A stretch of DNA of 64,000 nt from Ferruginibacter sp. (GTDB lineage Bacteria > Bacteroidota > Bacteroidia > Chitinophagales > Chitinophagaceae): contig NZ_JAQBNR010000019.1 of assembly GCF_028288465.1 (NCBI RefSeq), forward strand, positions 1-64,000. The letters are read 5' to 3'. The notes under the pieces are model-generated. The model saw nothing but the letters and a program-made list of their open reading frames with translations. It did not search any database and had not been told where the DNA came from. This document shows, piece by piece, positions 22,329-38,394 of the stretch (positions within the stretch are counted from its first letter, which is position 1; each line of letters starts with the position of its first letter). The translations under genes and the position numbers were made by a program.

Positions 22329-23465
22329 TTATTTTTTTGTCTCAGGATTAAAAGTTCGCCAGCTGTGCCAAAACTCCTGATAGACAGGCAAAGCTTTTAA
22401 TGATTTACCGCCCTCGACGGCTTTTCCGTCCACAGTGTATTTCAGCTTATTTTGTACAAGCGTATCGTTGTTCAAGGCAAAGCTATTTGCGGGATCGGTG
22501 TTTTCAAATGCAAAGAAACTTTTATCGTCTTGCGCCAAAACCAGGATAATATTTTTTCCATCCAGGGTATCGTTGATAATGCGTTTTTCTTTTAGCTGGT
22601 TCCAGTCGTATGCTTTCTTTTCCTTGCCAGCTTTTACGCCAATCACCCACGATTTATTTTTCCAGCTAAGGCTGTCCGTACCGGTTAGTTTGCTGGTACT
22701 TTTGCCACTTTCAAATTTACCGGTCGTGTCATATTCATTTTTAAATGCCGGGTCTTCCTGCATCACGAACGAGTTGGGATTAAGTGCCAGCCACTTTGTT
22801 AAGGAGGTTTGCGTGCTAAAAAATTCCGGCAGTCTTTGTCCTTTTAATTTTCCGGTGATGGCTTCCCCGGTTGCCTGCCGCCACCAGCTTTTTGTCGTCG
22901 CATCTTCCAGCATGGCATTGAAATGATCCATACCAACCAAACGAAATTGTTCCGGTTTGCCATATACAATTGGTTCGTATACGCGGCCCGTTCTGCACAC
23001 GGTACAATAAGTAATCAATAATGGTTTACCGCCCACTGTATCCTGCACCTGGTGATGATAACCTAAAAACCTGATGGGGTAAGCTTTTGCTTCGCCGTTG
23101 TTGACCACGCCAATTACCAATCTCCCGGAATCTACCTTATTATTGGTTTCATTTGCCATCACCACTTGTGTTGGTTTATAAAACATATGGTCTGCGGCCA
23201 TTTGAAAATTGACGATATAAATTACTGAAACAAGCAGCAGCAAAAACAGTAACGGTGTCCACCACCTCTTCCATTCGAACTTGTATGCACCAACTATAAT
23301 CATTGCCGCAAACACTATCCTAAATGCCCAGCGCCATTGGTATAAAAAATATGCCACATCAATACTATTCATCTGCTGGCTGCCCGGCATTGGCATGATG
23401 AGGTACACATTCAATATTTCAAAAAACAGCAGGCCAAAGAAACCGGCATAAAATATTTTTTTCAT
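22329..23465 (-). CDS. DUF3179 domain membrane protein
   Basis: A 378-residue protein beginning MKKIFYAGFFGLLFFEILNV. A TTG nine bases upstream is possible, but the ATG at 23463-23465 is the natural start. Three or so hydrophobic segments occupy residues 5-25, 40-70 and 75-95. The remainder is a DUF3179 domain: LLITYCTVCRTGRVYEP with a CxxC pair, FRLVGMDHFNAMLEDATT and SWWRQATGEAITGKLKGQ. The function of DUF3179 is not established. The CxxC could be redox-active or metal-binding, on the outer face of the inner membrane. It is 31 bases downstream of an AhpD-like gene, within the cluster of four such genes, which supports a redox context. Confidence 0.8.
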   Translation of the reverse strand: MKKIFYAGFFGLLFFEILNVYLIMPMPGSQQMNSIDVAYFLYQWRWAFRIVFAAMIIVGAYKFEWKRWWTPLLFLLLLVSVIYIVNFQMAADHMFYKPTQVVMANETNNKVDSGRLVIGVVNNGEAKAYPIRFLGYHHQVQDTVGGKPLLITYCTVCRTGRVYEPIVYGKPEQFRLVGMDHFNAMLEDATTKSWWRQATGEAITGKLKGQRLPEFFSTQTSLTKWLALNPNSFVMQEDPAFKNEYDTTGKFESGKSTSKLTGTDSLSWKNKSWVIGVKAGKEKKAYDWNQLKEKRIINDTLDGKNIILVLAQDDKSFFAFENTDPANSFALNNDTLVQNKLKYTVDGKAVEGGKSLKALPVYQEFWHSWRTFNPETKK

Positions 23466-23496
23466 GAAATTCAATTATATGATTATTCCTTGTTCA

Positions 23497-24045
23497 TTAC
23501 TTGCTTGCATCATAACCGGCATAACCTTGCTCCGCCCTTTGCTTTGCCCTTTCAATATAATAATTTTTATCTTCCGGAGCCCAGGTGGAGAGGCCATCTA
23601 CATAACGGTTAAACATACAAAATGCTGCTGCTATTAATACAGTGTCATGTATCTCTTTGTCTGTTGCACCAGTAATTTTAGCGGCATCAATTTGTTCGGC
23701 GGTTACGTTTTTTCCGCCTTGTTGAACTTTTTCGGCGATCCATAACAACGCTTTCATTTTATCAGAAATGTTGGTGTCCATATAATCTTTCTTCACCGCA
23801 TCAATAAAGGCGCTATCGCATTCCAGGTAATGTTGTGCCAGGCCTCCATGTACATGTTGACAAAAAAAACAATCATTTAAAGAAGATACATAAGCAGCAA
23901 TTAATTCTCTTTCACCACGGCTTAGTGAATTTTCACTGCGTAACAATACTTCGGCCAGGTCGTTCAATGGTTTGGCTGTTGCAGGACTAAAAGCCATCGG
24001 TCCCCTGATGCCGGGAAAGTCGTTTTCTAAATTAATATGAGCCAT
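23497..24045 (-). CDS. AhpD-like / carboxymuconolactone decarboxylase family protein (paralogue 1)
   Basis: A 182-residue protein starting MAHINLENDFPGIRG. The longer frame to 24129 is rejected because three paralogues begin at the equivalent Met. AhpD-type catalytic residues line up as E47, C59, C62 and H66 (DCFFCQHVHG), with the same E-x11-C-x2-C-x3-H spacing as Mycobacterium tuberculosis AhpD (E118, C130, C133, H137). The C-terminal helix pair contains ATDKEIHDTVLIAAAF and FNRYVDGL. The enzyme is probably a thiol peroxidase-like oxidoreductase. No signal peptide, so cytoplasmic. It lies after the SusC/SusD pair and before DUF3179. Confidence 0.85.
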   Translation of the reverse strand: MAHINLENDFPGIRGPMAFSPATAKPLNDLAEVLLRSENSLSRGERELIAAYVSSLNDCFFCQHVHGGLAQHYLECDSAFIDAVKKDYMDTNISDKMKALLWIAEKVQQGGKNVTAEQIDAAKITGATDKEIHDTVLIAAAFCMFNRYVDGLSTWAPEDKNYYIERAKQRAEQGYAGYDASK

Positions 24046-24076
24046 TGTTGGTGTATTAAATTTTGAAGTGTATTGA

Positions 24077-24204
24077 TGAATGGATAATGGATAATTTTTT
24101 AATTGATAATGAAATACAAGCGTAATCAATTTGAAATCGTTGTCTTCATTATTTGAGCTGGTTACTAACCATTATCCGTTATCCATTAAAAAATTACTCA
24201 TTAA
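24077..24204. repeat. Imperfect inverted repeat of TTATCCATTATCC-type sequence
   Basis: Bases 24077-24112 (containing ATGGATAATGGATAATTTTT) and 24169-24204 (containing ATTATCCGTTATCCATTAAA) are imperfect reverse complements sharing a 12-base core TAATTTTTTAAT. They flank about 56 bases between the SusD stop at 24207 and the AhpD-like start at 24045. The repeated GGATAAT motif resembles low-complexity intergenic repeats common in Bacteroidota. It could form a hairpin in the transcript between susD and the AhpD gene. Confidence 0.5.
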
Positions 24205-24206
24205 GA

Positions 24207-25508
24207 TCATTGTTCCGTTACAGGCAATGGAAATTCCGTCCACACATCGTCCCCTGTTCTGTCTATTGGTAAGTTTGCCAGTTTGTTATACCTGCGCAAA
24301 TCTATCCAACGATGGCCTTCATAAAAAAGAGAATACCTTCTCTGGTACAACAATTCGGCTATCAGTGCATCTGTTGTTATTGCGCCTGCATAAGGAGCCA
24401 GGTTATGTCCCAGCCTTATTACATTTAATGCAGTTACTGCATCAGGAAAAGCATTGGTGTTTATTTTTGCTTCGGCATATAACAATATCAACTCTTCATT
24501 TCTTATGATGGGTAAGGGGGCTGTACTTGAAGTATACACCCATACGTCCCGGTCACTGCTGAGACCATTGAGTGAGGCGGTAGAATTTCTAACACTTGTT
24601 TTATTAATCCGGTCGTCGCCGTTTTTAATATCTGCTGCAAAGGAAGCATGCGCAACCCTCACTTCTCCACTTTGGTTTTTAGGAATAAACATCGGATTTA
24701 ACTGATCGCCGGAGCCGGTGCCAAAAACATGGTTAACACCCAGGTAAAAGTCTTTTGTTACATCAAAAAAAGATTCATTCAAGGCAGTTAATACTTCCGG
24801 CCATTTTTTACGATAGGCAGCAACACGGGCGGCGATGGCACGGTTTACTTTTAAGAGCCCGGCAGCATCATTCAAACCATCAAAGCCGGCAAGCGGAAAT
24901 GCTACTGCAGCTGTTGCGAAATCTGTTTTCGCGGAATCCAAAATAGATGCGATGGCAGTTAGCCCATCATCATAATTAACAAATGCACCTAAGTTATCCG
25001 GGTCTGTTACATTTATTCTTATTCCTTTTGTATAGGTAAGATTGAGATTCAGTAATAACTGGTAGGCTTTGATGGTCCTTGCAAAACCGATATAACCGCT
25101 TTTTTCTGAACTACTGATTAGACTTGAATTGGTGGCAGCCAGGATAAGTATGTTACAATTTTTTACAACCCGGTAACGGGCAGCCCATGGATTGGTGATA
25201 TAAAAATTACTGTTGCTTAGTGTAGCATCATTTGCACCTAAGAGGTCAGTAACATAGCGGGGCTCTGATCCGGAAAAACGGTATCCTTCCCTTCCGATGG
25301 TGCCTACATCATCCAGGTAAAAAGCGATGTTGTTGCGCATGCCGGATTCGGTGCCACTCACCAAATTATTCAATTCGCTTTTGGAGGCGTTGCCTAGAAA
25401 TTGTTCAATTGTTGGACTGTTTAAATTGCCATAATCTTTTTTGCAGGCAGAAAAGAAAATAGCTGTTGCAATTACTATGGCGGTGTATATATATTTACTG
25501 TGTTTCAT
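24207..25508 (-). CDS. SusD/RagB family outer-membrane lipoprotein
   Basis: A 433-residue SusD-like protein. The lipobox FFSACKK puts the lipidated Cys near residue 21. Helical repeat features follow: NPWAARYRVVKNCNILILAA near residue 105, an SGYIGFARTIKAYQLLLNL segment near 137, IRNEELILLYAEAKINTN near 340 and the terminal YQRRYSLFYEGHRWIDLRR typical of SusD C-termini. It forms the surface lid of the SusC channel encoded 54 bases upstream and binds the ligand. At 433 residues it is short for the family. The ligand cannot be read from sequence. The neighbours are redox proteins, not glycosidases, so the cargo may be non-glycan. Confidence 0.9.
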   Translation of the reverse strand: MKHSKYIYTAIVIATAIFFSACKKDYGNLNSPTIEQFLGNASKSELNNLVSGTESGMRNNIAFYLDDVGTIGREGYRFSGSEPRYVTDLLGANDATLSNSNFYITNPWAARYRVVKNCNILILAATNSSLISSSEKSGYIGFARTIKAYQLLLNLNLTYTKGIRINVTDPDNLGAFVNYDDGLTAIASILDSAKTDFATAAVAFPLAGFDGLNDAAGLLKVNRAIAARVAAYRKKWPEVLTALNESFFDVTKDFYLGVNHVFGTGSGDQLNPMFIPKNQSGEVRVAHASFAADIKNGDDRINKTSVRNSTASLNGLSSDRDVWVYTSSTAPLPIIRNEELILLYAEAKINTNAFPDAVTALNVIRLGHNLAPYAGAITTDALIAELLYQRRYSLFYEGHRWIDLRRYNKLANLPIDRTGDDVWTEFPLPVTEQ

Positions 25509-25562
25509 TTTGATAGTTTTATTTGCTTTGTTTAATTGATCCGTTTTTACTTTTCAAAAGAT

Positions 25563-28514
25563 TTAGAAATCTATAGCAAGATGTAAAGAAGCCCGTTTAG
25601 ATGCAGGATAAGGATCAACATCAACACCTGATGAAAAACCTGTCCCGAAATTGGACACTTCAGGATCGTAGGATTTATATTTTGTGATGGTGAGATAATT
25701 ATTCAGCGAAGCGCCCACCCTGATATTTTTGATAAATAATGCAGGTGGTAATTTGTTGAAAGAATAATACAATCCTATTTCCCTTAGGCGCAGGTAACTG
25801 GCATCTTCCACAAAAACTTTGGCAGAACTTCCGACCTGTGAAATACGGTAGATGCCATTTGGCATGCCTGCCTTAAGGGTCATCGCATCAAAGTCAGGCG
25901 AGGTTTGCCCAAAATCGTTTTGCAGGTAAGTCAGGTTTACATTGTCGCCGCCTTTTTTCCAATGCATTAAAAAGCGCAGGCTTAACTTATTGTGAAAAGT
26001 AATTTCGTTGTAAGTATTCATCTGGAACTTTGGTTCTGCATCGCCTAACACGCCCACGCCAGCACCATTCAGCCCAACGATTTGTGTGGCAGATTTGCCC
26101 TGCTCAACCTGGAACGAACCAAGCACATAACCAAATGATCCCTGTGGAACGGGTGTGATGGTGTATTTTGTAACCAGCGATTTATTCAGCCAGAAATTAA
26201 CGGATGTATTCCAGGTAAGATTTTTTGATGCAACTGGTTTTGCTTTTACACCAAGCTCAACACCCCGGTTGCGTAAGTCTCCTGCATTTACCCATTTGGT
26301 AGAAAAGCCGGAAGAAGCCGGAAGGCCGGCAAGCATCAGGAAGTCGTATATTTTTTTATTGTAGTAAGTAAATTCAAAAGCCAGCTTGCCGTTCAGCAAA
26401 CTAAAATCAATACCAGCTTCCAGTTCGGTTTGTTTTTCTGGTTTGATGGAGGCATCGCCGCGTTGTATATTTACCAACGACCCAGGGTTGCCGGCAATAT
26501 TAGAAACCACCAGAGAAGTAAACTTGCTGCCGTACGCCGGAACGTTAGTGGCTTGTCCGTAAGCCGCCCTTAATTTGATGTCATCAAACAAGCCTTTTTG
26601 TATGAGACCCAGGCTGGTTAAATTGAGTGACACGCCGGCCTTTGGATAAGCATAATATTTTTTTACATCGCCATTATTACTGGAACGGTCAAAACGTACA
26701 CCACCTGTCAACGTAATACCATTATTGATCACCGCTTCTTCCTGTACAAACACCCCATCATTCTGGTATTTGGCCCTGAACTGGGTGGCAGTTAAAGCAC
26801 CCGCCTGATCAACATTTGACTGACCCGAAATAACCTGTGTAGCGACGTTCAGTAAATTATAGTAATCACCGCTTTCTCTGGTGATACCTGCAGATGTAGT
26901 AAAAGAGAGTTTGTCAGAAGGGGTGAAGGAATTCACCAGCGAGGCAATATAGTTGGTGCTTAAATTTTTTGTAGCACCCTGTATTGAAGTTCCTTTGTTA
27001 ACTGCCTGGAACTGCAGGGCACTTGGAAATAAAGCATTGGTTTCAAGATTATAAAAATCGAAACCACCCCTTGCTACAAACCTTGTAATGCTGTTGTTGT
27101 TTTTTTGCAGAATTGCATCCAGGTTTAAGCCGGTTATAAAACGGTTCACCGATTCATTATTGGTCATCAATGCAATTGTTTGCAGAGGATTGGATGCGCC
27201 AAATGGATTGGCTGGATAGTTGCCAAACTGATCAGCATGCAACTGCGCAAAGCTGGGGGTAGATGACAAGGCAATACCAATAGACGTTCCGGTATTGTCA
27301 TTGCCGGATAAACCCCTGTCTGCAGATGAATTGATATAGTTTGTACTGATACCGATTTTGATATTGTCCGTTATGCGATGATCAACATTTAACCTTAGAC
27401 TGCTGTTTCTGTACCCGGTATTTTTTACAATGCCGTCTTCATCTTTTTGTGCTGCTGAAAAGAAAAAGTTTGTTTTTTCGCCCCCACCACTCACGCTTAA
27501 CACAGTATTTCTTGCAAAGCCTTTGTTGCCATACACTTCCTTTTCGTAATCATAAATTTGCCCCGCTGTTTTTGCTGCGGTAAACTGCGCTGCCAGTGCG
27601 GCTCCCGCTGACGGGTCTCGCGAAAGACTGGCGGCTTTTTCTGCAGTAAACTCCCGTACGCCTAATAATTTTCTTGCTGAAACCTGGCCAAGATCCTGCG
27701 AAATACTGATGTTTGTTTTTCCTTGTTTACCTCTTTTGGTGGTGATGACAATAACACCTGCTGATGCTTTGGAACCATAGATAGCGGCGGCGGAAGCACC
27801 CTTTAAAATTTCGATGTTATCAATATCTTCTGCACGGATATCTGCAATGCGGCTGGAAGCATTGTCCTGGTTGGAAGTGGGGCTACCACCTGAAGCTGCG
27901 TTTGTTACTGCATTCAATCCGCCCGAAGTAGCCGTGTTATCGATAAAAACACCATCCACCACATACAACGGTTGGGTATTGCCGTAAATGGATGTGACGC
28001 CTCTTAGTTTTACAGAAATACCACCACCTGGCGCACCGGTGTTTGAATTGATATACGCACCGGATATTTTTCCGTTAAGAGCGGCATCAAAAGTTTGGGC
28101 TGGCGCTACGCCGTTTAATTGTTTGGAAGAAATAGTAGCTACTGCATTGGCAAGATTTCTTCTTTTTACATTGGTAGCCAAGCCTGTGACAACCACTTCA
28201 TCCAGTTTGGCAAAATCCTCTTCCATTTTTACCTGGATGTCGTTCTGTGCGGCATCGGCTGTAATTATTTTTGTTTTAAATCCCGAAGCGCTGACAGTTA
28301 GTTTTGCAGTGGCAGGCAGTGTTAAAGTAAATTTTCCATCGGCATCTGTAATGGTGCCTTTATTGCTTTTGTTGATGGAGATGGTAACGCCAGTTAACGG
28401 GGCCATATTGGCATCGGTAACTTTACCTGTGATTGTTTTTTCCTGGGCAAAAAGCCAGTCAGGTAAAAATATAAGGAATAGGATCACCGGTAAAAAATGA
28501 AATGCTTTTTTCAT
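25563..28514 (-). CDS. SusC/RagA-type TonB-dependent receptor
   Basis: A 983-residue outer-membrane receptor. A signal peptide (MKKAFHFLPV, cleavage near LFAQ) is followed by a carboxypeptidase-like beta-sandwich (ITGKVTDANMAPLTGVTISI), the TonB box-like DEVVVTGLAT, and a plug with IRAEDIDNIEILKGASAAAI and the YGSKASAGVIVITTKRG segment. The beta-barrel follows and ends in SLHLAIDF. It pairs with the SusD gene 54 bases downstream. It has no visible anti-sigma or Secretin/TonB N-terminal domain, so regulation is not by an adjacent ECF sigma factor. It sits between AhpD-like paralogues on both sides. Confidence 0.92.
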   Translation of the reverse strand: MKKAFHFLPVILFLIFLPDWLFAQEKTITGKVTDANMAPLTGVTISINKSNKGTITDADGKFTLTLPATAKLTVSASGFKTKIITADAAQNDIQVKMEEDFAKLDEVVVTGLATNVKRRNLANAVATISSKQLNGVAPAQTFDAALNGKISGAYINSNTGAPGGGISVKLRGVTSIYGNTQPLYVVDGVFIDNTATSGGLNAVTNAASGGSPTSNQDNASSRIADIRAEDIDNIEILKGASAAAIYGSKASAGVIVITTKRGKQGKTNISISQDLGQVSARKLLGVREFTAEKAASLSRDPSAGAALAAQFTAAKTAGQIYDYEKEVYGNKGFARNTVLSVSGGGEKTNFFFSAAQKDEDGIVKNTGYRNSSLRLNVDHRITDNIKIGISTNYINSSADRGLSGNDNTGTSIGIALSSTPSFAQLHADQFGNYPANPFGASNPLQTIALMTNNESVNRFITGLNLDAILQKNNNSITRFVARGGFDFYNLETNALFPSALQFQAVNKGTSIQGATKNLSTNYIASLVNSFTPSDKLSFTTSAGITRESGDYYNLLNVATQVISGQSNVDQAGALTATQFRAKYQNDGVFVQEEAVINNGITLTGGVRFDRSSNNGDVKKYYAYPKAGVSLNLTSLGLIQKGLFDDIKLRAAYGQATNVPAYGSKFTSLVVSNIAGNPGSLVNIQRGDASIKPEKQTELEAGIDFSLLNGKLAFEFTYYNKKIYDFLMLAGLPASSGFSTKWVNAGDLRNRGVELGVKAKPVASKNLTWNTSVNFWLNKSLVTKYTITPVPQGSFGYVLGSFQVEQGKSATQIVGLNGAGVGVLGDAEPKFQMNTYNEITFHNKLSLRFLMHWKKGGDNVNLTYLQNDFGQTSPDFDAMTLKAGMPNGIYRISQVGSSAKVFVEDASYLRLREIGLYYSFNKLPPALFIKNIRVGASLNNYLTITKYKSYDPEVSNFGTGFSSGVDVDPYPASKRASLHLAIDF

Positions 28515-28568: not shown

Positions 28569-29129
28569 TTAAGTGGGTTGTTTATTGGTAAAAACATGGT
28601 TTCCGTAGCCATTATCCACAATTTGTTTTGCCCGAAGCGGATAGGAATCCATATCGGTTGGAGTAATGGTGGCGAGGCCATCTACATACCTGTTAAACAT
28701 GCAAAATGCAGCGGCAATCAACACGGTATCATGTATGTCTTTGTCTGTAGCGCCTTTTTCTTTTGCCAGCTCAACGTCGGCTGTGGTTACGTTTTTTCCA
28801 CCCCGCTGTACTTTTGCCGCAATGGCCAGTAGCGATTTTAATTTGTCAGAAACAGGGGCTTTGGAATAGTCTTTTCTTACCTGCTCCACCAGCTCATTAT
28901 CACCGTCCAGGTAAATACAGGCAATCGCCCCGTGGGAATGATTACAGTAAAAACAGTCATTGAGATAAGAAACATAAGTGCCGATTAACTCCCGTTCAGC
29001 ACGCGATAGACCATCTTCGCTTCTTAATAAAATTTCTGCCAAAACACCCATTGGTGCAGCAGTTTCGGGACTATAAGCCATGGCGCTTCTAATCCCCGGA
29101 AAATCGTTGTTGAAATTAATGTGTGGCAT
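28569..29129 (-). CDS. AhpD-like / carboxymuconolactone decarboxylase family protein (paralogue 2)
   Basis: A 186-residue protein starting MPHINFNNDFPGIRSAM. The catalytic set E47, C59, C62 and H66 (DCFYCNHSHG) sits at the same residue numbers as in the copies at 23497 and 29272. ATDKDIHDTVLIAAAF and FNRYVDGLATI close the domain. It is most like paralogue 1, sharing LNDCF(F/Y)C. No signal peptide. It lies 54 bases upstream of the SusC start on the same strand, so it is probably cotranscribed with the receptor pair, an unusual partner for susC. Confidence 0.85.
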   Translation of the reverse strand: MPHINFNNDFPGIRSAMAYSPETAAPMGVLAEILLRSEDGLSRAERELIGTYVSYLNDCFYCNHSHGAIACIYLDGDNELVEQVRKDYSKAPVSDKLKSLLAIAAKVQRGGKNVTTADVELAKEKGATDKDIHDTVLIAAAFCMFNRYVDGLATITPTDMDSYPLRAKQIVDNGYGNHVFTNKQPT

Positions 29130-29271: not shown

Positions 29272-29823
29272 TCACTTCGGTTCCGGAGATGCAGGCAGCA
29301 CATATCCTTTCGCCATTCTTTCGCCCATTGCTTCATATACCGCAAGGTCGGTCGGTGTAAAACTGGCAAGTCCGTCAACGTAGCGGTTGAACATAGAAAA
29401 AGCTGCGGCAATCAGCACTGTATCATGGATTTCGCGGTCATCAGCACCCAACACCCTTGCAGCTGCAATGTCTTCGGGTGTTACTTCTCTTCCCAACACC
29501 TGTACCTTTCCGGCAATGTGGAGTAAAGCTTTTAGTTTATCACTCACGCCAGACTGCTGCATATCATGCAACACCTCATCCACCAGATTTTTATCCGGCC
29601 CATACAGGCATCTTGCCGCTGCGGCGTGACTGCTCATGCAAAATATACACTCATTGCGGTAGGATACATAAGCTGCAATCAATTCCCTTTCGGCTTCAGA
29701 TAAGGACGAAGGGCCACGCAATAAAACCTGTGCCAAATCATACAAAGGCTTTCCGGTTTCAGGCCGAAAAAGTACCAGGCTTCTGATGCCCGGAATGTTT
29801 TCTTCTACTTGAATATGCGCCAT
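29272..29823 (-). CDS. AhpD-like / carboxymuconolactone decarboxylase family protein (paralogue 3)
   Basis: A 183-residue protein starting MAHIQVEENIPGIRSL. E47, C59, C62 and H66 are present in ERELIAAYVSYRNECIFCMS. The residue between the cysteines and His differs (MSS) from copies 1 and 2, and it groups more closely with the copy at 31156 (RGPS(S/T)L). ADDREIHDTVLIAAAF and FNRYVDGLASF follow. Cytoplasmic. It is 57 bases downstream of the MFS gene and 142 bases upstream of paralogue 2. Confidence 0.85.
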   Translation of the reverse strand: MAHIQVEENIPGIRSLVLFRPETGKPLYDLAQVLLRGPSSLSEAERELIAAYVSYRNECIFCMSSHAAAARCLYGPDKNLVDEVLHDMQQSGVSDKLKALLHIAGKVQVLGREVTPEDIAAARVLGADDREIHDTVLIAAAFSMFNRYVDGLASFTPTDLAVYEAMGERMAKGYVLPASPEPK

Positions 29824-29880: not shown

Positions 29881-31152
29881 TTAGTGAATACTATCAGCCG
29901 AAAATTTTACTTCCGTCACTGATTCGATGTCTGCAGCATCAGCAGTGAAAAATGTTACTACTAAGCCTATCAGGAACACCGTGGAAAAAATAAATAAGGC
30001 ATTGCTATAGCCGCCTAATTCAGTCACCAGCACACCCACAAACAGTACAGCAACCGCCGTTAAAACTCTGCCTGTGTTAAAACAAAAACCCGTTGCGGCC
30101 CCGCGGATTTCAACCGGAAATAAATGTGGTATATAAACGGAAAGCACGCCCTGACTGGCGCCGAAGAATAAAGCCAGTATAATAATTTCGAAATATACAA
30201 TCGGAGAAAAATGAACATTTGTTTTAAACAGGATGAGTGACATTACTGCACAAACTGAAAAACAAAGCAGCATGGATTTGCGAAGGCCGATGGCGTTGGT
30301 TAACCAACCGGACAAAAAACCTCCGGTTAAACCGCCCATACCCAGCATCATCATGCTAAGCCCTCTTTCTTTTTGTGCATCACCATTAATTACGAGTGTT
30401 TGTATCCAGGTAGGCAGCCAGGAAAAGATCGCCCACAAGCCAATCAGCATAGTGCCAAAAATAATGGAGCCCGTTATTAAATCTTTACGATGGCTGCCGG
30501 TAAATAAAGTGTCTTTAACATGTGATTGCAAAGCAATTTCATCCCGGTTGTATTTCCATTTGGGTGATTCTTTTAATAAAAAACAGGCAATTATGGCGAT
30601 ACCCACAGGGAAGACACCTATTAAAAAACCCTGTCGCCAGGAGGAAACAAAATAATCAATTACCCCTGCGGAAAAAATACCCACGGGTATTGAGATGGAT
30701 AAAATACCGATGAAGATGGCCCTGGTTTTTTGTGGCCATTCTTCCATCATGATAGTAACGGTGGTAACCAGTACACCGCCCAAACCAAAACCACTAAAAA
30801 AGCGGCAGATTACAACGCCCCACCAGTTGGGCATGTAGCCAGTTAAGAGGGTAAATATTCCATAGCTGGCAATTGACACTATCACGCCTGCTTTTCTGCC
30901 TGCTTTATCACTTATGATACCGCAAATAAAACCACCAAATGCTCCGCCGAAAATAAAAACCGCATTGATATAGGCGCTGATGGTATTGAGTTCACCTTCA
31001 CTTTTTTCGCCCAGTAAATCTTTTACAGCCACGGGCAGGTAAACACTCATCAACGTCGATATGGTGCCGGCGAATGCGGTTCCCAAAAAACAAATAGCAA
31101 ACAACAACCAGTGATAGGGTTTTATTTTTTCGTCTTGTGTTGGTAAAGTCAT
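29881..31152 (-). CDS. MFS transporter, metabolite:H+ symporter-like
   Basis: A 423-residue, 12-helix carrier. Motifs include GGFICGIISDKAGRKAGVIV (the loop 2-3 A-motif) and CRFFSGFGLGGVLVTTVTIM in helix 4, and LLKESPKWKYNRDE in the central loop. This pattern is that of aromatic-acid or sialic-acid type proton symporters (AAHS/SHS group). It starts three bases after the stop of the AhpD-like gene at 31156, so translation is probably coupled, and it is followed by two more AhpD-like genes. The substrate is unknown. An organic acid or aromatic compound acted on by the AhpD-like proteins is a reasonable inference. Confidence 0.82.
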   Translation of the reverse strand: MTLPTQDEKIKPYHWLLFAICFLGTAFAGTISTLMSVYLPVAVKDLLGEKSEGELNTISAYINAVFIFGGAFGGFICGIISDKAGRKAGVIVSIASYGIFTLLTGYMPNWWGVVICRFFSGFGLGGVLVTTVTIMMEEWPQKTRAIFIGILSISIPVGIFSAGVIDYFVSSWRQGFLIGVFPVGIAIIACFLLKESPKWKYNRDEIALQSHVKDTLFTGSHRKDLITGSIIFGTMLIGLWAIFSWLPTWIQTLVINGDAQKERGLSMMMLGMGGLTGGFLSGWLTNAIGLRKSMLLCFSVCAVMSLILFKTNVHFSPIVYFEIIILALFFGASQGVLSVYIPHLFPVEIRGAATGFCFNTGRVLTAVAVLFVGVLVTELGGYSNALFIFSTVFLIGLVVTFFTADAADIESVTEVKFSADSIH

Positions 31153-31155
31153 TGT

Positions 31156-31716
31156 CTATTTTTTAAGATGCTCATAGCCTTGTGGCAAACGATTGTATCC
31201 ATTGTTTTTTAAACGCTCTCCAAGCCCTTTGTAAAATGCCGGATCGGTTGGCGTAACAGTTGCCAGCCCGTCTACATAACGGTTGTACAGGCAGAACAAT
31301 GCTGCGATCAACACAGTGTCATGAATTTCTATGTCTGTTGCTCCGGCTTCTTTTGCTTTTTGCACTGATGCTGTTGTTACATTTTTTCCACCCTGCTGCA
31401 CCTGTGCGGCAATGGTTAATAAGGCTTTCATTTTTTCACTTACCGGGGCAGTGATAATATCCTGTTTTACCCTGGCCGAGGTTTCTTCTTCGCCCAATAA
31501 AATATTGGCTGCTGCCGTATGGGCTGTTGTGCAAAACGTACATTGATTGCGGTGTGAAACAACCGTGGCGATTAATTCTCTTTCGCCTTCGGTTAAGGTG
31601 GATGGACCACGGAGCAGAATTTGCGTTAACTCCCTGATGGGTGCTGCGGTTTCTTTGCTGTATTCCAGCAAACCGGTAATACCAGGCAGGTGATCCTCTA
31701 ATGGAATATATGGCAT
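31156..31716 (-). CDS. AhpD-like / carboxymuconolactone decarboxylase family protein (paralogue 4)
   Basis: A 186-residue protein starting MPYIPLEDHLPGITGLL, with E47, C59, C62 and H66 in ERELIATVVSHRNQCTFC and TTAHTAAA. It is the most diverged of the four at the N-terminus. ATDIEIHDTVLIAALF and YNRYVDGLATV follow. It is the first gene of a tight AhpD-MFS-AhpD-AhpD-susCD unit, three bases before the MFS start. Two hairpins with compensatory changes lie upstream at 31757 and 31883. Confidence 0.85.
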   Translation of the reverse strand: MPYIPLEDHLPGITGLLEYSKETAAPIRELTQILLRGPSTLTEGERELIATVVSHRNQCTFCTTAHTAAANILLGEEETSARVKQDIITAPVSEKMKALLTIAAQVQQGGKNVTTASVQKAKEAGATDIEIHDTVLIAALFCLYNRYVDGLATVTPTDPAFYKGLGERLKNNGYNRLPQGYEHLKK

Positions 31717-31756: not shown

Positions 31757-31780
31757 GGCATCATAAAGAATTATGACGCC
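31757..31780. repeat. Intergenic hairpin A (covarying pair with 31883-31906)
   Basis: GGCATCATAA-AGAA-TTATGACGCC: a 10-bp stem with one A-C mismatch and the tetraloop AGAA. The copy at 31883 keeps the same outer GGC/GCC pairs, the same mismatch and the same loop, but the inner six pairs differ with compensation. Confidence 0.65.
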
Positions 31781-31882
31781 TTATCATTAAACTAAACTGC
31801 TAAAAACGACTGACTAAGAATATTGCCTGGTTTGGTGTATTATTTTAACTATAAAATTGTAATTGCTCAGGTTGTTGAAAAT

Positions 31883-31906
31883 GGCATTGTAAAGAATTAC
31901 AACGCC
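31883..31906. repeat. Intergenic hairpin B (covarying pair with 31757-31780)
   Basis: GGCATTGTAA-AGAA-TTACAACGCC. Compared with hairpin A, TCATAA/TTATGA has become TTGTAA/TTACAA, so pairing is preserved. On the minus strand it is followed by ATTTTC. It lies 56 bases after the stop of the PAP2 lipoprotein gene and may be a terminator or an RNA processing site. A mobile palindromic repeat family is equally possible. Confidence 0.6.
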
Positions 31907-31961: not shown

Positions 31962-33515
31962 TTATTCGGCGCCATCCGTCTTTGCTCTTTCTATGGCATA
32001 TGCTCCTACATTTTTCCCTACTGTTAAGCCAACGGAACAATCGCTGCGAAAGTGAATACCGCCGTACATTCTTGACATAGAAGCTTCCTGCGCCATCGCT
32101 TCATAAGCGGTTGCCCTTTCTGGAATGATATGCCCCAGTATGGCCGCCGCGGCACCGCTAAAAGTAGAGTGGCCTGAAATATAAGAAGGGAAGTTAGGTA
32201 TCCCTGTAAGTGTTTTTATTGCCGGGTTCAATTGTGTCGGCCGTGGGTTGTAATAATAATTTTTTGTATCCCAGCAAACAATGGCGGCATCCATTAGCGA
32301 CATGTTAAGTAATGCCATATTTCTTGCCCAACGAACTTCACTAAAACCTTTTGCAATAAAATCTTCAGCAGCTATGGCATCCCAGTGGCCTGGAGGAGTG
32401 GATGTAGCGACCCCATCAGCCCAGAACTGAACAATGGCGGTTCTTTCGCGTGTTGGGGTTTTTACCATCTGGTAAATCTCTTCTGTTTCATCTTTCATTT
32501 GCTTGCTGCCAACAGCGGGTGGCGGCGCCGGGCGCAATGATAACGCAGTTAAAGAATCAAATAAAAAAGCTTTTGTTTTTCCAAAAACAGGCAGCATGGG
32601 CGGCCGTTTTGGAATTTCCAGGCTATACCAGGGGGTTTCGCCCCTTGCCATACAATCCGTTTCGAGCTTTGCCCAAATGGTGGGCGTACCTACTGCAGCA
32701 CCCGCCCTGTCGCCTCGTGCCCTCGCTGTAAATTTTTGTGCTACTGCTTTGCCCAAAGCCTCACCTGCTTCGATGTCGCTGCGTACATTGGCGCCGGCAA
32801 TAATTCTTGCTCTTCTGTGTTCTGCTGCTTTTTGTTGTATATAATCCTGGTCTCCGGGAAAAAGTAGTTTCAGCATTTCAACCGCTGTACCTTCTACTAC
32901 CGCATCTTCGGATGGATAAGACGGCAACTCTGACTTTGGAACCAATACCTGTAAAGTAGCATCCACTTTATACGGTGCCGCACGGTTAAATTGTTTTTTA
33001 TAATACCAGGCAGTTACCAAAGCATCGTATTGGGCTGCACTTACATAAGCATAGGCCCTTGCTGCATAAGGCGGATTACTGAATGGAAATTGCGGGTATG
33101 CCAGTGGATTGGCGGCACTTGGAATAGGGTAGGTACCATCGGGGTTTTGATAAGGAGGCAGGTTGTGTTTGGCTACCAGTTCCCTTAAAATTTCGTTCCA
33201 GCGCAGTATAGCGCCGGCACTCCAATACTTTACCATCTTTTTTTCTTCCGGCGTAATATTGGCCTGGGCGCTTTTTATTTCATTGATCTGCGCAATGTAA
33301 TCAGGAGTGTTTGTGGCGATAGGAGTTGCTACCACGATATCTGTCGGTGCAGCCAGCAGCACGGGTTTCCACGTGCCTGCATTCGAATCAATGTTGGTTG
33401 GTGCCAGGGCAGGTGCATTGTCTGTTCTGCCCACGATATCTTTATTGCATGCTATAATGATTGCTGCCGCAGCAACCACAATACAAACCTGGTACAAAAA
33501 TAATTTCTTGTTCAT
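31962..33515 (-). CDS. PAP2 / vanadium haloperoxidase superfamily lipoprotein with duplicated core
   Basis: A 517-residue lipoprotein. The ATG at 33513-33515 is chosen: the hydrophobic segment and lipobox IIACNK (Cys about residue 23) follow at once, and the longer frame to 33641 overlaps the upstream gene. The C-terminal half carries all three superfamily motifs: K418-x6-R425-P in TKNYYYNPRP, the S-G-H449 motif in PSYISGHSTFSG and S481-R-x5-H488-x3-D492 in SRMYGGIHFRSD. An earlier copy is degenerate: KKQFNRAAP, SYPSEDAVVEG and AGANVRSDIEAGEALG near residues 173-255. Related enzymes are acid phosphatases or vanadate-dependent haloperoxidases. Which one applies is not decidable here. One base separates it from the upstream barrel gene. 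Confidence 0.82.
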   Translation of the reverse strand: MNKKLFLYQVCIVVAAAAIIIACNKDIVGRTDNAPALAPTNIDSNAGTWKPVLLAAPTDIVVATPIATNTPDYIAQINEIKSAQANITPEEKKMVKYWSAGAILRWNEILRELVAKHNLPPYQNPDGTYPIPSAANPLAYPQFPFSNPPYAARAYAYVSAAQYDALVTAWYYKKQFNRAAPYKVDATLQVLVPKSELPSYPSEDAVVEGTAVEMLKLLFPGDQDYIQQKAAEHRRARIIAGANVRSDIEAGEALGKAVAQKFTARARGDRAGAAVGTPTIWAKLETDCMARGETPWYSLEIPKRPPMLPVFGKTKAFLFDSLTALSLRPAPPPAVGSKQMKDETEEIYQMVKTPTRERTAIVQFWADGVATSTPPGHWDAIAAEDFIAKGFSEVRWARNMALLNMSLMDAAIVCWDTKNYYYNPRPTQLNPAIKTLTGIPNFPSYISGHSTFSGAAAAILGHIIPERATAYEAMAQEASMSRMYGGIHFRSDCSVGLTVGKNVGAYAIERAKTDGAE

Positions 33516-33516
33516 G

Positions 33517-34473
33517 TTAATTTGTTTTACCTGATTTATCAGTTGATGTTGTTTTGCGTGTAAAGTCGAGGATATAAAAAACGGAGCCGTAAAAAGCAGT
33601 TGCCTGCCCAACATTCCTTCCGGCAACAGTTGTATTACCACCGCCTACCAATGATAAATTGTGATTTGCTGTAACAACATATTTAACATTGGCACCTATG
33701 GTGGTGGCATTCATTTTATTGCTGGGGAAAGGCATATTATTCCTGGTGATATCAAAACCGCCAAGCGTGGTCCATTTGTTCAGCACGGCTTCTGCAATTA
33801 ATTTACTGCTGCGGTAACCAGCTCTGAAATTAAAGTTGGAAGCATCGGGCATTGACACTTCATTGGTGAGATGCGACTGCGTATCATAGTAAGATGTGCG
33901 GTCCAATTTTGTGTTATCTCTTACCACATAAGTAGCACTGCCGGTAACAAAAATGTTGTTTACCTGGTAGTCCAGCAGCAATCTTGCAGAAAGTGTTTTG
34001 CTGTGCAGCCCGATTGACAGGGGAAGAAAATCAACCACATAATTACTGAGCGGTATAGATGCGCCCCCAATGGTGTACAAAGAAAATGTGCCAGGGCCGA
34101 GCATCTGCTCAACTGGCATCCATTTTATAAACAGGCTTAGATCCTGAAAGCCCTGCATGCTATGCAGTGTGCCGTCTGAGGCTTTTGTTTTGATATAGGG
34201 AACATTAAATAAAGCATTTAGTTTTCCGGTAATGCCGTATGCGCCCATTACTGCAAAAGTATTCGTGCTTACTGTGCCAAGGTTTTGATTGTCTCTTTTT
34301 AGAGTTCCTTCCCAATAATTTTTCCAACTGCTATGGTTGTACATTGGTCCTACGCAAAACTGCTTTTTCTCCATCATAATGGCATCCAAATCTGTTTGCG
34401 CCTTGCTCATTAAAGGCAAGCCTGTTACAGCTATTGCGATTGATAAAATCGATAACAAGTATTTCATATCCAA
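33517..34473 (-). CDS. Predicted outer-membrane beta-barrel protein
   Basis: A 318-residue exported protein starting MDMKYLLSILSIAIAVTG (a second ATG two codons later is also possible), with cleavage near MSKAQ. The mature part is a run of alternating hydrophobic strands, such as NTFAVMGAYGITGKLNALF, DLSLFIKWMP and FNFRAGYRSSKLIAEAVL, ending in FYGSVFYILDF. This fits a porin-like or phenol-degradation meta-pathway-type barrel. It starts 44 bases after the next barrel gene and its stop lies one base before the PAP2 lipoprotein ATG, so the two proteins are likely made together and may cooperate in the outer membrane. Confidence 0.7.
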   Translation of the reverse strand: MDMKYLLSILSIAIAVTGLPLMSKAQTDLDAIMMEKKQFCVGPMYNHSSWKNYWEGTLKRDNQNLGTVSTNTFAVMGAYGITGKLNALFNVPYIKTKASDGTLHSMQGFQDLSLFIKWMPVEQMLGPGTFSLYTIGGASIPLSNYVVDFLPLSIGLHSKTLSARLLLDYQVNNIFVTGSATYVVRDNTKLDRTSYYDTQSHLTNEVSMPDASNFNFRAGYRSSKLIAEAVLNKWTTLGGFDITRNNMPFPSNKMNATTIGANVKYVVTANHNLSLVGGGNTTVAGRNVGQATAFYGSVFYILDFTRKTTSTDKSGKTN

Positions 34474-34517
34474 TTTTTATAGTTCTTTTTTAATTTGATA
34501 AAAGCGGGAATTGTCAT

Positions 34518-35615
34518 TTAGAATTTCACACTAAAACCAAGGTTAACCACATAATCTGCGAAGGCGGCGTCGCCCTGTACATGTTTATTTTGTGTAACGC
34601 TGTTTTCTTTATCTGTTACGCTTTGTGTTCTGTTGCGGGCAACAGCAAAGGGTACAGAAACAAAGAAGTTTAGTTTATGCACCATGTAAGCAACGGCTGG
34701 TTCTACTGACCATATATAGCCTGGTCTGCGAAAATCGCCGCTGCCGCCAATCAGGTCATGCACTGGTACACATTCTAATTTGGCACCGGCCGCCACAGTT
34801 AATCCGTGCAAGCTGTTGATTGAATAATTAAAACCACTTCTGAACATATATTGATCCGGCACACTGCAAATGGCTTCGTTGGCTAAAGACGCCACCAATG
34901 TTTCACGATAAGTTCTTACGCCATTCTGTTCCCTGGGATTAATCAGGTAATAGAAATTGCCATACATACCAAAATTGCGGGTGAAATTATAATAGGCATT
35001 TAGTTCAGTTGTAAAGCCGGTGCCACCATCGCCCAATTGTATGGACTGATCTACTGTGCGCAGTTCTTTTGTTCCGTTAGGCCCTACATTATACCAGTAA
35101 TCTTTAAAATTGTCATCACCTGTTGGCAGCTTAATTCCCAACCCTGCCTGGATATTTCCCTTGGTACTTTTCTTTGGATCAAGCAACCATCTGTAGGCAG
35201 CAAAACGCATATCACCCAGGCCAAAAGAGTGTGTAGTGTGTCTTTCCTTTTTTATGTAAGCGCCGTTTACAAGCCCATGTTCATACAGGGATGAACGTGC
35301 ATTCGACAAAATAGGCAGGTCAACCATAAAAGACCAGCGGTCATTTACTATGCGTGTTAATGCAAGATCAATACTTGTCTGGTGATTGATTACTTCGCTC
35401 CCATCTACCAGTCTTTGCTTATTTTCAGTAGTGCCGGAAAAATGGCGAAAAGACCTGAAGGAGCGGGATGTGGTACTTAATAACCAGGAAGCTTTATCAT
35501 GTTCGTCAGGATGCAGCATATTGATGTTGCCTGTACTGCGAACTGCAACGCAGCCCTGCGCCGATGTTTGAATATAAAAGCCTGCAATCAACAGGATAGA
35601 TAAAATGTACTTCAT
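34518..35615 (-). CDS. Predicted outer-membrane barrel protein, GCVAVR family (copy 1)
   Basis: A 365-residue exported protein with signal peptidase site before GCVAVR (mature residue 2 is Cys). It shares with the protein at 35806 a set of conserved blocks: FRSFRHFSGT, LGDGGTGF, YLINPREQNG, VPDQYMFRSGF, VHDLIGGSGDFRRPGYIWSVEP, ARNRTQSVTDK and HVQGDAAFADYVVNLGF at the C-terminus. The strand-turn-strand pattern indicates a beta-barrel. I recognise the family only as an uncharacterised Bacteroidota outer-membrane type seen near PAP2 genes. It lies between its paralogue and the third barrel gene, in a run bracketed by two PAP2-type lipoproteins. Confidence 0.72.
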   Translation of the reverse strand: MKYILSILLIAGFYIQTSAQGCVAVRSTGNINMLHPDEHDKASWLLSTTSRSFRSFRHFSGTTENKQRLVDGSEVINHQTSIDLALTRIVNDRWSFMVDLPILSNARSSLYEHGLVNGAYIKKERHTTHSFGLGDMRFAAYRWLLDPKKSTKGNIQAGLGIKLPTGDDNFKDYWYNVGPNGTKELRTVDQSIQLGDGGTGFTTELNAYYNFTRNFGMYGNFYYLINPREQNGVRTYRETLVASLANEAICSVPDQYMFRSGFNYSINSLHGLTVAAGAKLECVPVHDLIGGSGDFRRPGYIWSVEPAVAYMVHKLNFFVSVPFAVARNRTQSVTDKENSVTQNKHVQGDAAFADYVVNLGFSVKF

Positions 35616-35805: not shown

Positions 35806-36960
35806 TTAAGCGTGTTTTTTATTTTTTGCAAACCTGTAAGAATAACCAAGGCTGATGGAATAATCTGCAAAAGCAGCATCGCCTTGTACATGAACCAATT
35901 TACTTACGTCGCTGATTTTTGAATTTTGCAGATTTTGGTCTGCCTTATCAGCGGCGCTCTGTGTACGGTTTTTAATGAAGTTATATGGAACAAATAGACT
36001 AATGCTGTGTTGACCCATGCGGTAAGAAACACCGGATTCAATAGCTACTACATAACCTGGTCTGCGGTATGCTACCTGGCCGCCGATTATATCATACGCA
36101 GGAATGCCTTCCATCCTGGTTGCCAATGAAAAAGTGAGTGTTTTAGCCTTTAAAACAGAAGCCATAAAGCCGGCACGAACAAAATACTGATCAGGACAGG
36201 CGTAAATGTTGTAACCTGCCAAACCTGGTTTTGCCGCAGATTTAAATGTGCCGTTTGACTCCCTTGGGTTAAACAAATAATAGCCATTTGCAAAGCCATA
36301 AATGTCTTTGTAGATTTTTGTAAATCCCTGGAATTCCAAAGAAAATCCTACGCCACCATCGCCCGGTTGTATTGCCTGATCGTTGATTGAACTTTTAGTG
36401 GTGCCATCTTTTTGCAGTGCATTGTCGCTGGTATTATGGCTACCAGTTGCCAGTTTCAAACCAAAGCCAATCATCAGGTTTCCTGTGTGTGCAACTGCAG
36501 GATCAGTAACCCAATAGTTAAGTCCCAAACGGGCATCAGCAATTCCTTGCGCAAATACACTGTAACGGGTTAGTTTTTTTGAAGCCGAATCTTTATTCAG
36601 CGTTAGCGTTTGAGAGCGCTCATTGTGCACATACGGTAGTGTCACATTTAACTGTAAACGATTGGTTAAACCGTAAGACAAATTAAGATCCACCGCATGA
36701 GAATAAATATTAACCGCATTGCCCAATACCTGGCGCTGAGGCTGTTCATCTGTGCCTACAAAATGCCGCCAGCTGTGAAAGTAACGGTAGTTGGTTCCAA
36801 CCTGGAAATCGCCTTTGGAAAGATTGTATGAGCCTGATGGAGACATGGCGCCCAGCCCGCCCATCTGGCGTACGGCTACGCAGCCCTGCGCTGTTGATTG
36901 TAAATGAATAGTGGTGGTTAATAATAAAGCTATAATAAAAATAGATATGATCTGTTTCAT
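35806..36960 (-). CDS. Predicted outer-membrane barrel protein, GCVAVR family (copy 2)
   Basis: A 384-residue protein starting MKQIISIFIIALLLTTT. The ATG at 36958-36960 is preferred to the one at 37006-37008, which only adds a polar extension before the signal peptide. The mature N-terminus is GCVAVRQMGG, as in the paralogue at 34518. Shared blocks are YFHSWRHFVGT, QPGDGGVGF, YLFNPRESNG, CPDQYFVRAGF, AYDIIGGQVAYRRPGYVVAIES, IKNRTQSAADK and HVQGDAAFADYSISLGYS. A 190-base spacer follows it, so a separate promoter for copy 1 is possible. Confidence 0.72.
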   Translation of the reverse strand: MKQIISIFIIALLLTTTIHLQSTAQGCVAVRQMGGLGAMSPSGSYNLSKGDFQVGTNYRYFHSWRHFVGTDEQPQRQVLGNAVNIYSHAVDLNLSYGLTNRLQLNVTLPYVHNERSQTLTLNKDSASKKLTRYSVFAQGIADARLGLNYWVTDPAVAHTGNLMIGFGLKLATGSHNTSDNALQKDGTTKSSINDQAIQPGDGGVGFSLEFQGFTKIYKDIYGFANGYYLFNPRESNGTFKSAAKPGLAGYNIYACPDQYFVRAGFMASVLKAKTLTFSLATRMEGIPAYDIIGGQVAYRRPGYVVAIESGVSYRMGQHSISLFVPYNFIKNRTQSAADKADQNLQNSKISDVSKLVHVQGDAAFADYSISLGYSYRFAKNKKHA

Positions 36961-37068
36961 GTTTGATTTTTGAGTAGTGAATTTTTTGGATGCCATGTAC
37001 AACTCCAATCAATGCTAACAGGTGACTACACCTGGCAATATTAATTGCTAACTAACCGGCACAGGTTG

Positions 37069-38394
37069 TTATTTTTTCATTTTCAATTTACCGTTAATGA
37101 AGTCGCCTACTTGTTTGCCCACGGCATTGCTTACGATGCAGGATGGGTGAAAATGAATGCCGCCGTAAAACCTGGCTGAGTTATTTTCCAGTGCCGCCTG
37201 CCTGAAAGAAGTAAACTTGCGGTTTTGAATTCCAAACTCAAGCTCCGTGCTATCTGTGTAGGCAAAATTATCACCGTAAATATCAGTTAATGCTTCCGCT
37301 GCCGCTGATGAAATGGTTGAATGTCCGCAGGTATATTCCGGAAAAGCCGGTGTTTGTAAATAAGGTCTCCAGTTGGGATCAATGTATTTGTTGATCACTG
37401 TTTCAGGACGCACTGTATTGTACGTATACTTCACCTGCCAACATTGAATGAATGCATCAAATAAGGCAATGGAAGTTTTGGCGTATGCATACACCGTTTC
37501 ATCGTAACTGGATTTAGCTTGTTTAGCCGCAATGCCAATTATACTCATCCAGTGACCTGAGGGAGAAAACTTTTTTGTACCGAACATTACATGACCAGAA
37601 ACATTGAGTTTAAAAGGATTATCATCCCAAAAGTCAGCTATATGCTTTTGTTCATCGGTTAAGCTGTCTATTGCATTTTTGATTGCCATTAACTGCCCGT
37701 AATACTTACTCTTTTTATCGGTAATATCAAAAGGGATAGGCGGCGGTGTTAAAAACTGGTTGGCACTGTCGATAGCCATGGTCCTTATTTCCATCCAGTG
37801 AGGTTCTGCGGCCTGCGCATACATGGGCGGCGTAGGAACCCAGCGGCCGGGTTCATCTCTTACGGTGTATTTTTCAGCGCTTCTTGTTTCAGCATAATTA
37901 TCTTTTTTACTCCATCTTATGATACTTGCGCTCATACTGTCTGCAAATGTCTGTGATGCAGTTTCAATATTTTCCGGCAAACCTTTATCTCGTGCCAGTT
38001 TCAAAATACTGTCTTTATATTCCTGCATACTTCCTTCCGGAAATGTAACCGCTTCACCAACTTTAATATAAGCTAATAATGCAGCCAGCTCAAAATCAAC
38101 CGGCGTATTGGCTGCTGGGTTAGCTACCGCAGTAAGCCCGTGTACCTGCCCCACCAGTGACTGGTATTTTTTTGGGTAGCCCGCTGCGATTACTTCGTAC
38201 GCTGCTATTGCGCCATAAGTGTAATTGCGTGCGGCAATCATTGGTGGAAAATTGTTTCCCATTACAACACCATTCAGTTCATGTACTGTGTTGGAAAACA
38301 ACTGTGGGTCATGCAGGTACGCTTTATACTCGATGTTTTGCTTGCAGGAATACAATGATGCTACAATGCAAAGACATACAAAAAGTCTTCTCAT
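37069..38394 (-). CDS. PAP2 / vanadium haloperoxidase superfamily lipoprotein, variant motif 3
   Basis: A 441-residue lipoprotein (lipobox LYSCKQ, Cys about residue 17). Superfamily motifs are at the C-terminus: K322-x6-R329-P in VKYTYNTVRP, G-H358 in FPEYTCGHSTIS, and R408-x5-H414 in SARFYGGIHFHPSC. The Asp normally four residues after the last His is Ser here, and the Ser before Arg is Ala. The overall pattern otherwise matches the protein at 31962. It may be a haloperoxidase-like enzyme with altered activity or a non-catalytic relative. It is 108 bases upstream of the barrel gene at 36960 and 63 bases after the 191-residue protein gene. Confidence 0.78.
   Translation of the reverse strand: MRRLFVCLCIVASLYSCKQNIEYKAYLHDPQLFSNTVHELNGVVMGNNFPPMIAARNYTYGAIAAYEVIAAGYPKKYQSLVGQVHGLTAVANPAANTPVDFELAALLAYIKVGEAVTFPEGSMQEYKDSILKLARDKGLPENIETASQTFADSMSASIIRWSKKDNYAETRSAEKYTVRDEPGRWVPTPPMYAQAAEPHWMEIRTMAIDSANQFLTPPPIPFDITDKKSKYYGQLMAIKNAIDSLTDEQKHIADFWDDNPFKLNVSGHVMFGTKKFSPSGHWMSIIGIAAKQAKSSYDETVYAYAKTSIALFDAFIQCWQVKYTYNTVRPETVINKYIDPNWRPYLQTPAFPEYTCGHSTISSAAAEALTDIYGDNFAYTDSTELEFGIQNRKFTSFRQAALENNSARFYGGIHFHPSCIVSNAVGKQVGDFINGKLKMKK

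Follow-up and report, generated by a model that had tools for sequence, protein, structure and literature searches.

The stretch of Ferruginibacter sp. DNA analysed here, 64,000 nucleotides of contig NZ_JAQBNR010000019.1 (assembly GCF_028288465.1; 95 contigs, 6.88 Mb) and called the window below, brings together genes for four AhpD-like proteins, a DUF3179 membrane protein, a SusC/SusD pair, an MFS carrier, three predicted outer-membrane barrels and two haloperoxidase/PAP2-type predicted lipoproteins, VIPO and PAP2a. The question is whether such a mixture belongs together. Comparison with relatives indicates that the region consists of two conserved Bacteroidota modules that meet here, and is not a chance neighbourhood. 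Module A has the order h191-VIPO-barrel2/3-barrel1-PAP2a (39033-31962 in the window), and module B, as it stands in the window (31716-22329), the order AhpD4-MFS-AhpD3-AhpD2-SusC-SusD-AhpD1-DUF3179. A preliminary description of the same DNA took the region for one cluster and named absence of the gene set from relatives as its refutation. The genes adjoin and are conserved, so that on this count its reading is not refuted, but they form two modules that are mostly apart elsewhere (AhpD and PAP2a lie less than 20 kb from each other in 5 of the 17 Chitinophagaceae genomes with both). The small gene h191 was missing from its gene list, although it is a member of the conserved unit.

The comparison covered 80 named AhpD-anchored loci, the best of 562 confirmed ones (595 stretches), many of which are broken by contig ends, and 60 further loci, 40 anchored on PAP2a and 20 on AhpD, VIPO or DUF3179. 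The 40 come from 46 PAP2a places, the other six being the window itself, G169, G198 (two pieces), G182 and G219:C44. The general order of module B is h191-AhpD4-(TonB receptor)-MFS-AhpD3-AhpD1-(AhpD2-SusC-SusD), with DUF3179 at the end or elsewhere; judged by this order, AhpD1 has evidently moved behind SusD in the window. Clustering of open reading frames (ORFs) in the 80 named loci finds an MFS gene in 68, a relative of h191 in 51, a TonB receptor (median 922 aa) in 41, DUF3179 in 36, the window's type of SusC in 16, SusD in 15, PAP2a in 9 and VIPO in 8; by tblastn, PAP2a-like sequence is present in the flanks of 10. Barrel1 immediately precedes PAP2a in all 40 PAP2a loci, where h191 is labelled in 35 (though not at the module's head in L083), VIPO in 33, barrel2 in 23, GH65 in 20, a FecA-type receptor in 17 and DUF3179 in 4. 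Relatives of h191 head both modules, with 18-35% identity to the window copy. The nearest named locus is that of Ferruginibacter paludis (L001), with AhpD1 96% identical and DNA identities of 94.7 and 95.8% over two aligned blocks. PAP2a lies next to AhpD in loci titled Chitinophagaceae or near (L002, Ferruginibacter; L018, Terrimonas; L019, L025, Segetibacter) and in L062 (Emticicia), L065 (Algoriphagus), L069 (Spirosoma), L075 and L077 (Runella) and L079 (Rhabdobacter); a taxonomy look-up places Runella, Algoriphagus and Emticicia in the Cytophagales.

The four AhpD-like proteins carry E47, C59, C62 and H66 at identical residue numbers, as had been noticed before and as alignment bears out. 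For AhpD1 this numbering starts from an ATG 28 residues into the listed ORF, which begins at TTG 24129. All four pass the cut-off of the TIGR01926 'peroxidase-related' model (91.0, 93.5, 90.7 and 89.7 bits; cut-off 81.8) and have the E-x11-CxxC-xxxH relay intact. AhpD2-4 share 49-60% identity with AhpD1, and the four-AhpD profile has just these four matches in the genome at E<=1e-20. In a maximum likelihood tree of 138 rows (40 loci with at least 3 copies, and the window) out of 275 distinct ones, the window's copies fall into four separate, position-specific clades: AhpD1 (41 rows, support 99/92), AhpD2 (13, 100/99), AhpD3 (33, 100/98) and AhpD4 (37, 100/99). The remaining 14 rows are further AhpD copies, mostly from Mucilaginibacter-type loci. 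The AhpD1, AhpD3 and AhpD4 clades each include rows titled Chitinophagaceae, Sphingobacteriaceae, Fulvivirgaceae and Flectobacillaceae; the AhpD2 clade holds Chitinophagaceae and unplaced Bacteroidota. By this tree, the four are old paralogues retained side by side, and not the outcome of recent local amplification.

Across the loci, the relay is intact in 278 of 292 AhpD-like proteins. In the other 14 (10 AhpD3-like, 4 AhpD4-like; L023, L026, L064, L069, L075 and others) Thr replaces the first Cys of CxxC and the second is kept, which might be tolerated if the copies act in a mixed oligomer. The closest solved relatives of the four are PDB entries 2prr, 2oyo, 2pfx, 3c1l and 6k40, TIGR01926 peroxidase-related proteins whose molecule names are mostly 'uncharacterized' or 'putative'; in the searches made, no four-paralogue operon with SusCD turned up. 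Listings of selenoproteins contain TIGR01926 AhpD-like proteins with CxxU and members of the DUF3179 family with UxxC/T, which points to catalytic thiol/selenol redox chemistry.

The association of the genes extends to whole genomes. Among 117 Chitinophagaceae genomes at least 90% complete, including that of the window, profiles with limits of E<=1e-20 (AhpD), 1e-30 (PAP2a), 1e-20 (DUF3179) and 1e-110 (VIPO) find AhpD in 24, PAP2a in 44, DUF3179 in 31 and VIPO in 55. PAP2a and VIPO share 41 genomes, in 35 of which they are within 20 kb of each other; DUF3179 and VIPO share 30 (30 of the 31 with DUF3179; 7 within 20 kb), AhpD and DUF3179 18 (18 of the 24 with AhpD; 10 within 20 kb), AhpD and VIPO likewise 18 of 24 (5 within 20 kb), and PAP2a and DUF3179 25 (6 within 20 kb). 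Linkage was counted with 81 AhpD places and the full set of 68 VIPO places; for the Fisher tests, each AhpD cluster was entered as one place and VIPO by its main places. One-sided p values for the six pairs run from 2e-3 (AhpD-VIPO) and 2e-4 (AhpD-PAP2a) to 5e-16 (PAP2a-VIPO). As a negative control, a GH30 gene from the window was compared with each of the four genes and gave no association (p 0.12 to 0.34); being present in 10 of the 117 genomes, it is rarer than the tested genes and thus a weaker control. In a second order (that of genome G135; 201 genomes, stricter AhpD limit of 1e-60), AhpD occurs in 16 genomes, PAP2a in 39 and both in 15, so that PAP2a accompanies 15 of 16 AhpD genomes and 24 of the 185 others (p 2e-11, a value inflated by kinship, since the matches are mostly from one genus, g79). 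In a class-wide sample the AhpD set was found in 13 of 149 genomes (AhpD limit 1e-20).

What the modules do is suggested first by VIPO. Its best solved relative is the Zobellia vanadium haloperoxidase 4cit, which aligns over residues 9-449 with VIPO 1-439 (E 2.7e-110); VCPO_2nd is matched at 30 bits against a cut-off of 27, and PAP2 below cut-off. VIPO shares with the Zobellia galactanivorans enzyme the K-x6-RP (KYTYNTVRP) and R-x5-H (ARFYGGIH) motifs. It differs at the vanadate site, where 4cit has the Ser of SGH, presumably the vanadate-binding residue (this was checked solely against the 4cit alignment), and VIPO has Cys-Gly-His. In the VIPO family tree, Cys occupies this position in 21 of 53 scored rows (one further row was left unscored), which form a single clade (support 99/99) explained by a single change on the tree; in 18 of these, the Ser preceding the Arg of the third motif is likewise replaced, by Ala. 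PAP2a and VIPO align with each other, profile against profile, over 346 columns (E 4.4e-51). Since both proteins align with the vanadium-haloperoxidase family well past the PAP2 core, the haloperoxidase link is firmer than the preliminary description had it. That they are PAP2/haloperoxidase-type is clear; 'lipoprotein' is judged by eye from signal peptides.

A second pointer comes from AhpD-like proteins elsewhere. Peroxide reduction, which the preliminary description took as the AhpD activity, is one recorded activity and not the sole one. RclX, an AhpD-like protein with CxxC, protects Pseudomonas aeruginosa from hypochlorous acid (HOCl) and hypothiocyanous acid (HOSCN), and the mutant is HOCl-sensitive, according to the passages seen of PMC7950407; RcsA, also AhpD-like, is said in the excerpted text of PMC9751292 to degrade HOCl. 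The rclX gene is a single-gene operon beside rclR, whereas the window has four TIGR01926-type paralogues with SusCD and an MFS carrier. The likeness to RclX is one of description, sequence having been compared only through its cousin PA0269, to which the AhpD profile has a weak match (E 0.024). RclX and RcsA are, we assume, one gene. For Zobellia, the consulted sections of PMC9296495 report induction of the iodoperoxidase gene vIPO3 on Ascophyllum and of a CMD-family gene especially on Laminaria, which is only suggestive, as the algae and the comparisons differ; in the same sections no mention was met of an AhpD/SusCD unit alongside the iodoperoxidase.

Taken together, these data are consistent with a reading that is quite possible, if tentative: halide oxidation in the envelope by module A, paired with a module B that takes up a ligand and reduces hypohalite or peroxide products by thiol chemistry. 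Gene content, its conservation, the old age of the four AhpD paralogues, the kinship of VIPO and the co-occurrence in whole genomes are observed; we infer the activity, the halide, the ligand, the direction of transport, the mixed oligomer and the cell side of each protein. Module A would supply two extracytoplasmic lipoproteins, both of them vanadium-haloperoxidase-family enzymes, together with outer-membrane barrels that belong to them. VIPO and PAP2a would most likely oxidise a halide or another small anion with H2O2, at or outside the outer membrane; the Zobellia iodoperoxidase is reportedly iodide-specific, and kinship with it would make iodide the first candidate. Module B would be the reductive and uptake half, in which SusC/SusD and the MFS carrier may import an organic ligand, cytoplasmic AhpD paralogues (perhaps as a mixed oligomer) may use their CxxC pair to reduce hydroperoxide products or those derived from hypohalite, and DUF3179 may perform thiol redox work on the periplasmic side.

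Several observations weigh against this pairing of oxidation and reduction. The linkage of AhpD with PAP2a in Chitinophagaceae is low (17 of the 24 AhpD genomes have both, and just 5 have them within 20 kb), 7 of the 24 lack PAP2a and 6 lack VIPO, and AhpD is present in 3 of the 40 PAP2a loci (L083, L087, L117). In the second order, AhpD and PAP2a are neighbours in 1 of the 15 joint genomes (G283, 114 bases apart). The Fisher tests ignore kinship and genome size, and the counts include the window's own genome. As VIPO lacks the Ser of the vanadate site, it is possibly no haloperoxidase, and an E of 0.024 for PA0269 makes the HOCl precedent a cousin at most. Finally, no halide carrier, dehalogenase, peroxide source or oxidant regulator was seen among the genes of the unit.

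These points leave room for an alternative that is somewhat doubtful, though a serious one, namely two unrelated units: module B for uptake and catabolism of an organic acid or aromatic compound, with the AhpD-like proteins as breakdown enzymes, and module A as a separate haloperoxidase operon, adjacent by happenstance in some lineages. The modules are unlinked in most genomes with both. The MFS carrier is matched best by models of aromatic-acid and sialate symporters, with all 22 of the models listed scoring below cut-off. Module B of relatives contains catabolic-looking genes, a cobalamin-independent methionine-synthase-like one at the AhpD genes in 13 of the 80 named loci (e.g. L038 7103-8155; PF01717, 37.5 bits) and an esterase in 5, which could later hint at the SusCD/MFS ligand. 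On the other hand, co-occurrence persists in the second order, with the genes mostly lying apart; PAP2a next to AhpD recurs in several genera; a methionine-synthase-like gene also precedes barrel1-PAP2a (L114); and the full relay is present in all four window AhpD proteins.

At the junction of A and B, a pair of hairpins would suit separate transcripts. Every ORF of at least 180 aa within 18341-41156 is on the minus strand, and neighbouring genes between h191 and DUF3179 are spaced by -2 to 190 bases, the one larger gap being the 245 bases between PAP2a (start taken as 33518) and AhpD4. This gap contains the two hairpins (GGCGTnnnAATTCTTTnnnATGCC) with identical loop and stems altered on both sides. 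None of 100 shuffles had two matches at <=3 mismatches, and the RNA fold of the gap has a z of -4.3. One more exact hairpin copy was found among 155 loci, at 32-55 of L001. There, in F. paludis, the second hairpin and its flank are kept (62 bases, 98%); next come a FecA-type receptor of ~2.2 kb and, behind it, AhpD4. Such a receptor also separates PAP2a from AhpD4 in L083 and L087, which suggests, most simply, that the window has lost it.

Another possibility, an unlikely one, is that the PAP2-type lipoproteins are phosphatases and that module A is there to scavenge phosphate or lipid-phosphate, the shared site making the haloperoxidase name misleading. PAP2a has the motifs K-x6-RP (KNYYYNPRP), SGH (ISGH) and SRx5HxxxD (SRMYGGIHFRSD), and PAP2 phosphatases have the same residues. 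Its PDB matches include the acid phosphatase 7f17 (E 7.3e-13) beside 4cit (E 2.5e-15), and the curated PhoC model matches it below cut-off. The near end-to-end match of VIPO to 4cit, the absence of any phosphatase among its PDB matches at E<=0.001 and the long PAP2a-VIPO alignment speak against phosphatases, as does the length of PAP2a (~518 aa), PAP2 phosphatases being usually shorter. A chance neighbourhood with no functional meaning, to which the abundance of SusC/SusD and MFS genes in Bacteroidota genomes might point, is very improbable, because the order h191-AhpD4-MFS-AhpD3-AhpD1 and the block AhpD2-SusC-SusD recur across loci, the AhpD clades are position-specific, co-occurrence is seen alongside the GH30 negative control, and each module is conserved, with an A-B junction not confined to the lineage of the window.

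The envelope oxidation-reduction reading can be extended, in a form that is rather unlikely in our estimate, to oxidative foraging or chemical defence in Bacteroidota. Surface haloperoxidases would make reactive halogens, and the co-inherited four AhpD, SusCD, MFS carrier and periplasmic DUF3179 thiol/selenol-type protein would protect the cell and take in the products; the Cys-VIPO clade would then be a new catalytic type of vanadate site. Polysaccharide utilization loci resemble module B in that a SusC-SusD pair is accompanied by surface proteins and a carrier, but no glycosidase is among the module B genes, and the GH65 gene of the window lies upstream of module A. No description of a haloperoxidase-family operon paired with a four-AhpD/SusCD/DUF3179 operon turned up in searches of the open-licence literature; the parts are known families, and the combination is new as far as we know. 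To our knowledge, vanadium-haloperoxidase homologues of soil and freshwater Bacteroidota have no established role, and no function has been assigned to DUF3179 or to the TIGR01926 AhpD group. The conserved, testable gene set offers a common working hypothesis for all three families and provides genes to knock out in culturable relatives. It is also relevant to the question of which organisms make, and which tolerate, reactive halogens in the environment.

Table 1. Features of modules A and B in the window, in the direction of the minus strand.
Feature	Positions	Strand	Remarks
h191	38458..39033	-	small membrane-anchored protein; first gene of module A in the window
VIPO	37069..38394	-	vanadium-iodoperoxidase homologue, predicted lipoprotein; EYTCGH at the vanadate site
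barrel3	35806..37008	-	predicted outer-membrane barrel, resembles barrel2; barrel nature judged by eye
barrel2	34518..35615	-	predicted outer-membrane barrel; barrel nature judged by eye
barrel1	33517..34473	-	predicted outer-membrane protein, immediately precedes PAP2a
PAP2a	31962..33518	-	second haloperoxidase/PAP2-type predicted lipoprotein; PF01569, 59 bits
two look-alike hairpins	31757..31906 (31883-31906 and 31757-31780)	-	between modules A and B
AhpD4	31156..31716	-	AhpD-like, TIGR01926
MFS carrier	29881..31152	-	3 bases after AhpD4
AhpD3	29272..29823	-	AhpD-like, TIGR01926
AhpD2	28569..29129	-	AhpD-like, TIGR01926
SusC-type TonB-dependent receptor	25563..28514	-	PF00593, PF07715 and PF13715 above cut-off
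SusD-type lipoprotein	24207..25508	-	PF07980 above cut-off, 55.9 bits
AhpD1	23497..24045	-	AhpD-like, TIGR01926
DUF3179 membrane protein	22329..23474	-	PF11376, 182.6 bits (cut-off 27)

Every gene listed in the preliminary description lies where it was placed there, on the minus strand. The table agrees with the preliminary description on a SusC/SusD pair amid the AhpD genes, the receptor gene being followed by that of the lipoprotein with Pfam domains above cut-off, and on a symporter gene three bases from an AhpD gene. The start of PAP2a near 33518 was picked by eye, as the GTG ORF start at 33641 would overlap barrel1. The three proteins described as barrels are in place; their barrel nature is judged by eye, and no Pfam domain was found in them above cut-off, even with E<=10. 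In general, the 'barrel' and 'lipoprotein' labels rest on signal peptides and strand pattern.

The DUF3179 protein has the CxxC already noted, as C157-C160. Structure predictions were run for the window protein and all 35 DUF3179 rows of suitable length, and for the window copy and 48 of 51 rows of h191, from loci L001-L080 only (L081-L140 were left out). They suggest for DUF3179 N-terminal helices followed by a duplicated, perhaps Rieske-like fold, with CxxC in the first copy alone. The cluster motifs speak against a Rieske [2Fe-2S] protein. Rieske cluster ligands are provided by CxH and CxxH motifs, as in Rieske ferredoxins and domains, and these are missing from DUF3179, whose invariant residues include Y139, H140, H141, C157, C160 and H184; there was no sequence-profile match to the five Rieske proteins of the same genome. 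For h191, there is a single match in the genome at E<=0.01, and neither a Pfam domain above cut-off nor a convincing fold match was found.

The genome has ten VIPO-like places, PAP2a counted among them. Four further copies (L143, L144, L145 and L146, on contigs C13, C83, C58 and C86) adjoin genes matching the FG-GAP/ASPIC protein of L044 and have SusC-like matches within 9 kb, that of L143 just 127 aa long, and thus represent a second recurrent haloperoxidase neighbourhood. A fifth copy, L142, has an FG-GAP/ASPIC-like gene ~3 kb away. On contig C46 (L141), a VIPO-like gene (8554-9909) lies 1.7 kb from a 110-aa CMD-family gene (11637-11969).

The region is flanked by genes for a LacI regulator, a trehalase, an MFS protein and GH65 (window 11943-15834 and 39123-41156), and genes of similar size to the LacI/MFS/trehalase set, judged by size and eye only, follow in several PAP2a loci. 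One locus with the Bacteroidota module, L028, is in a record titled 'Williamsia sp.' (Actinomycetota); this title is probably wrong.

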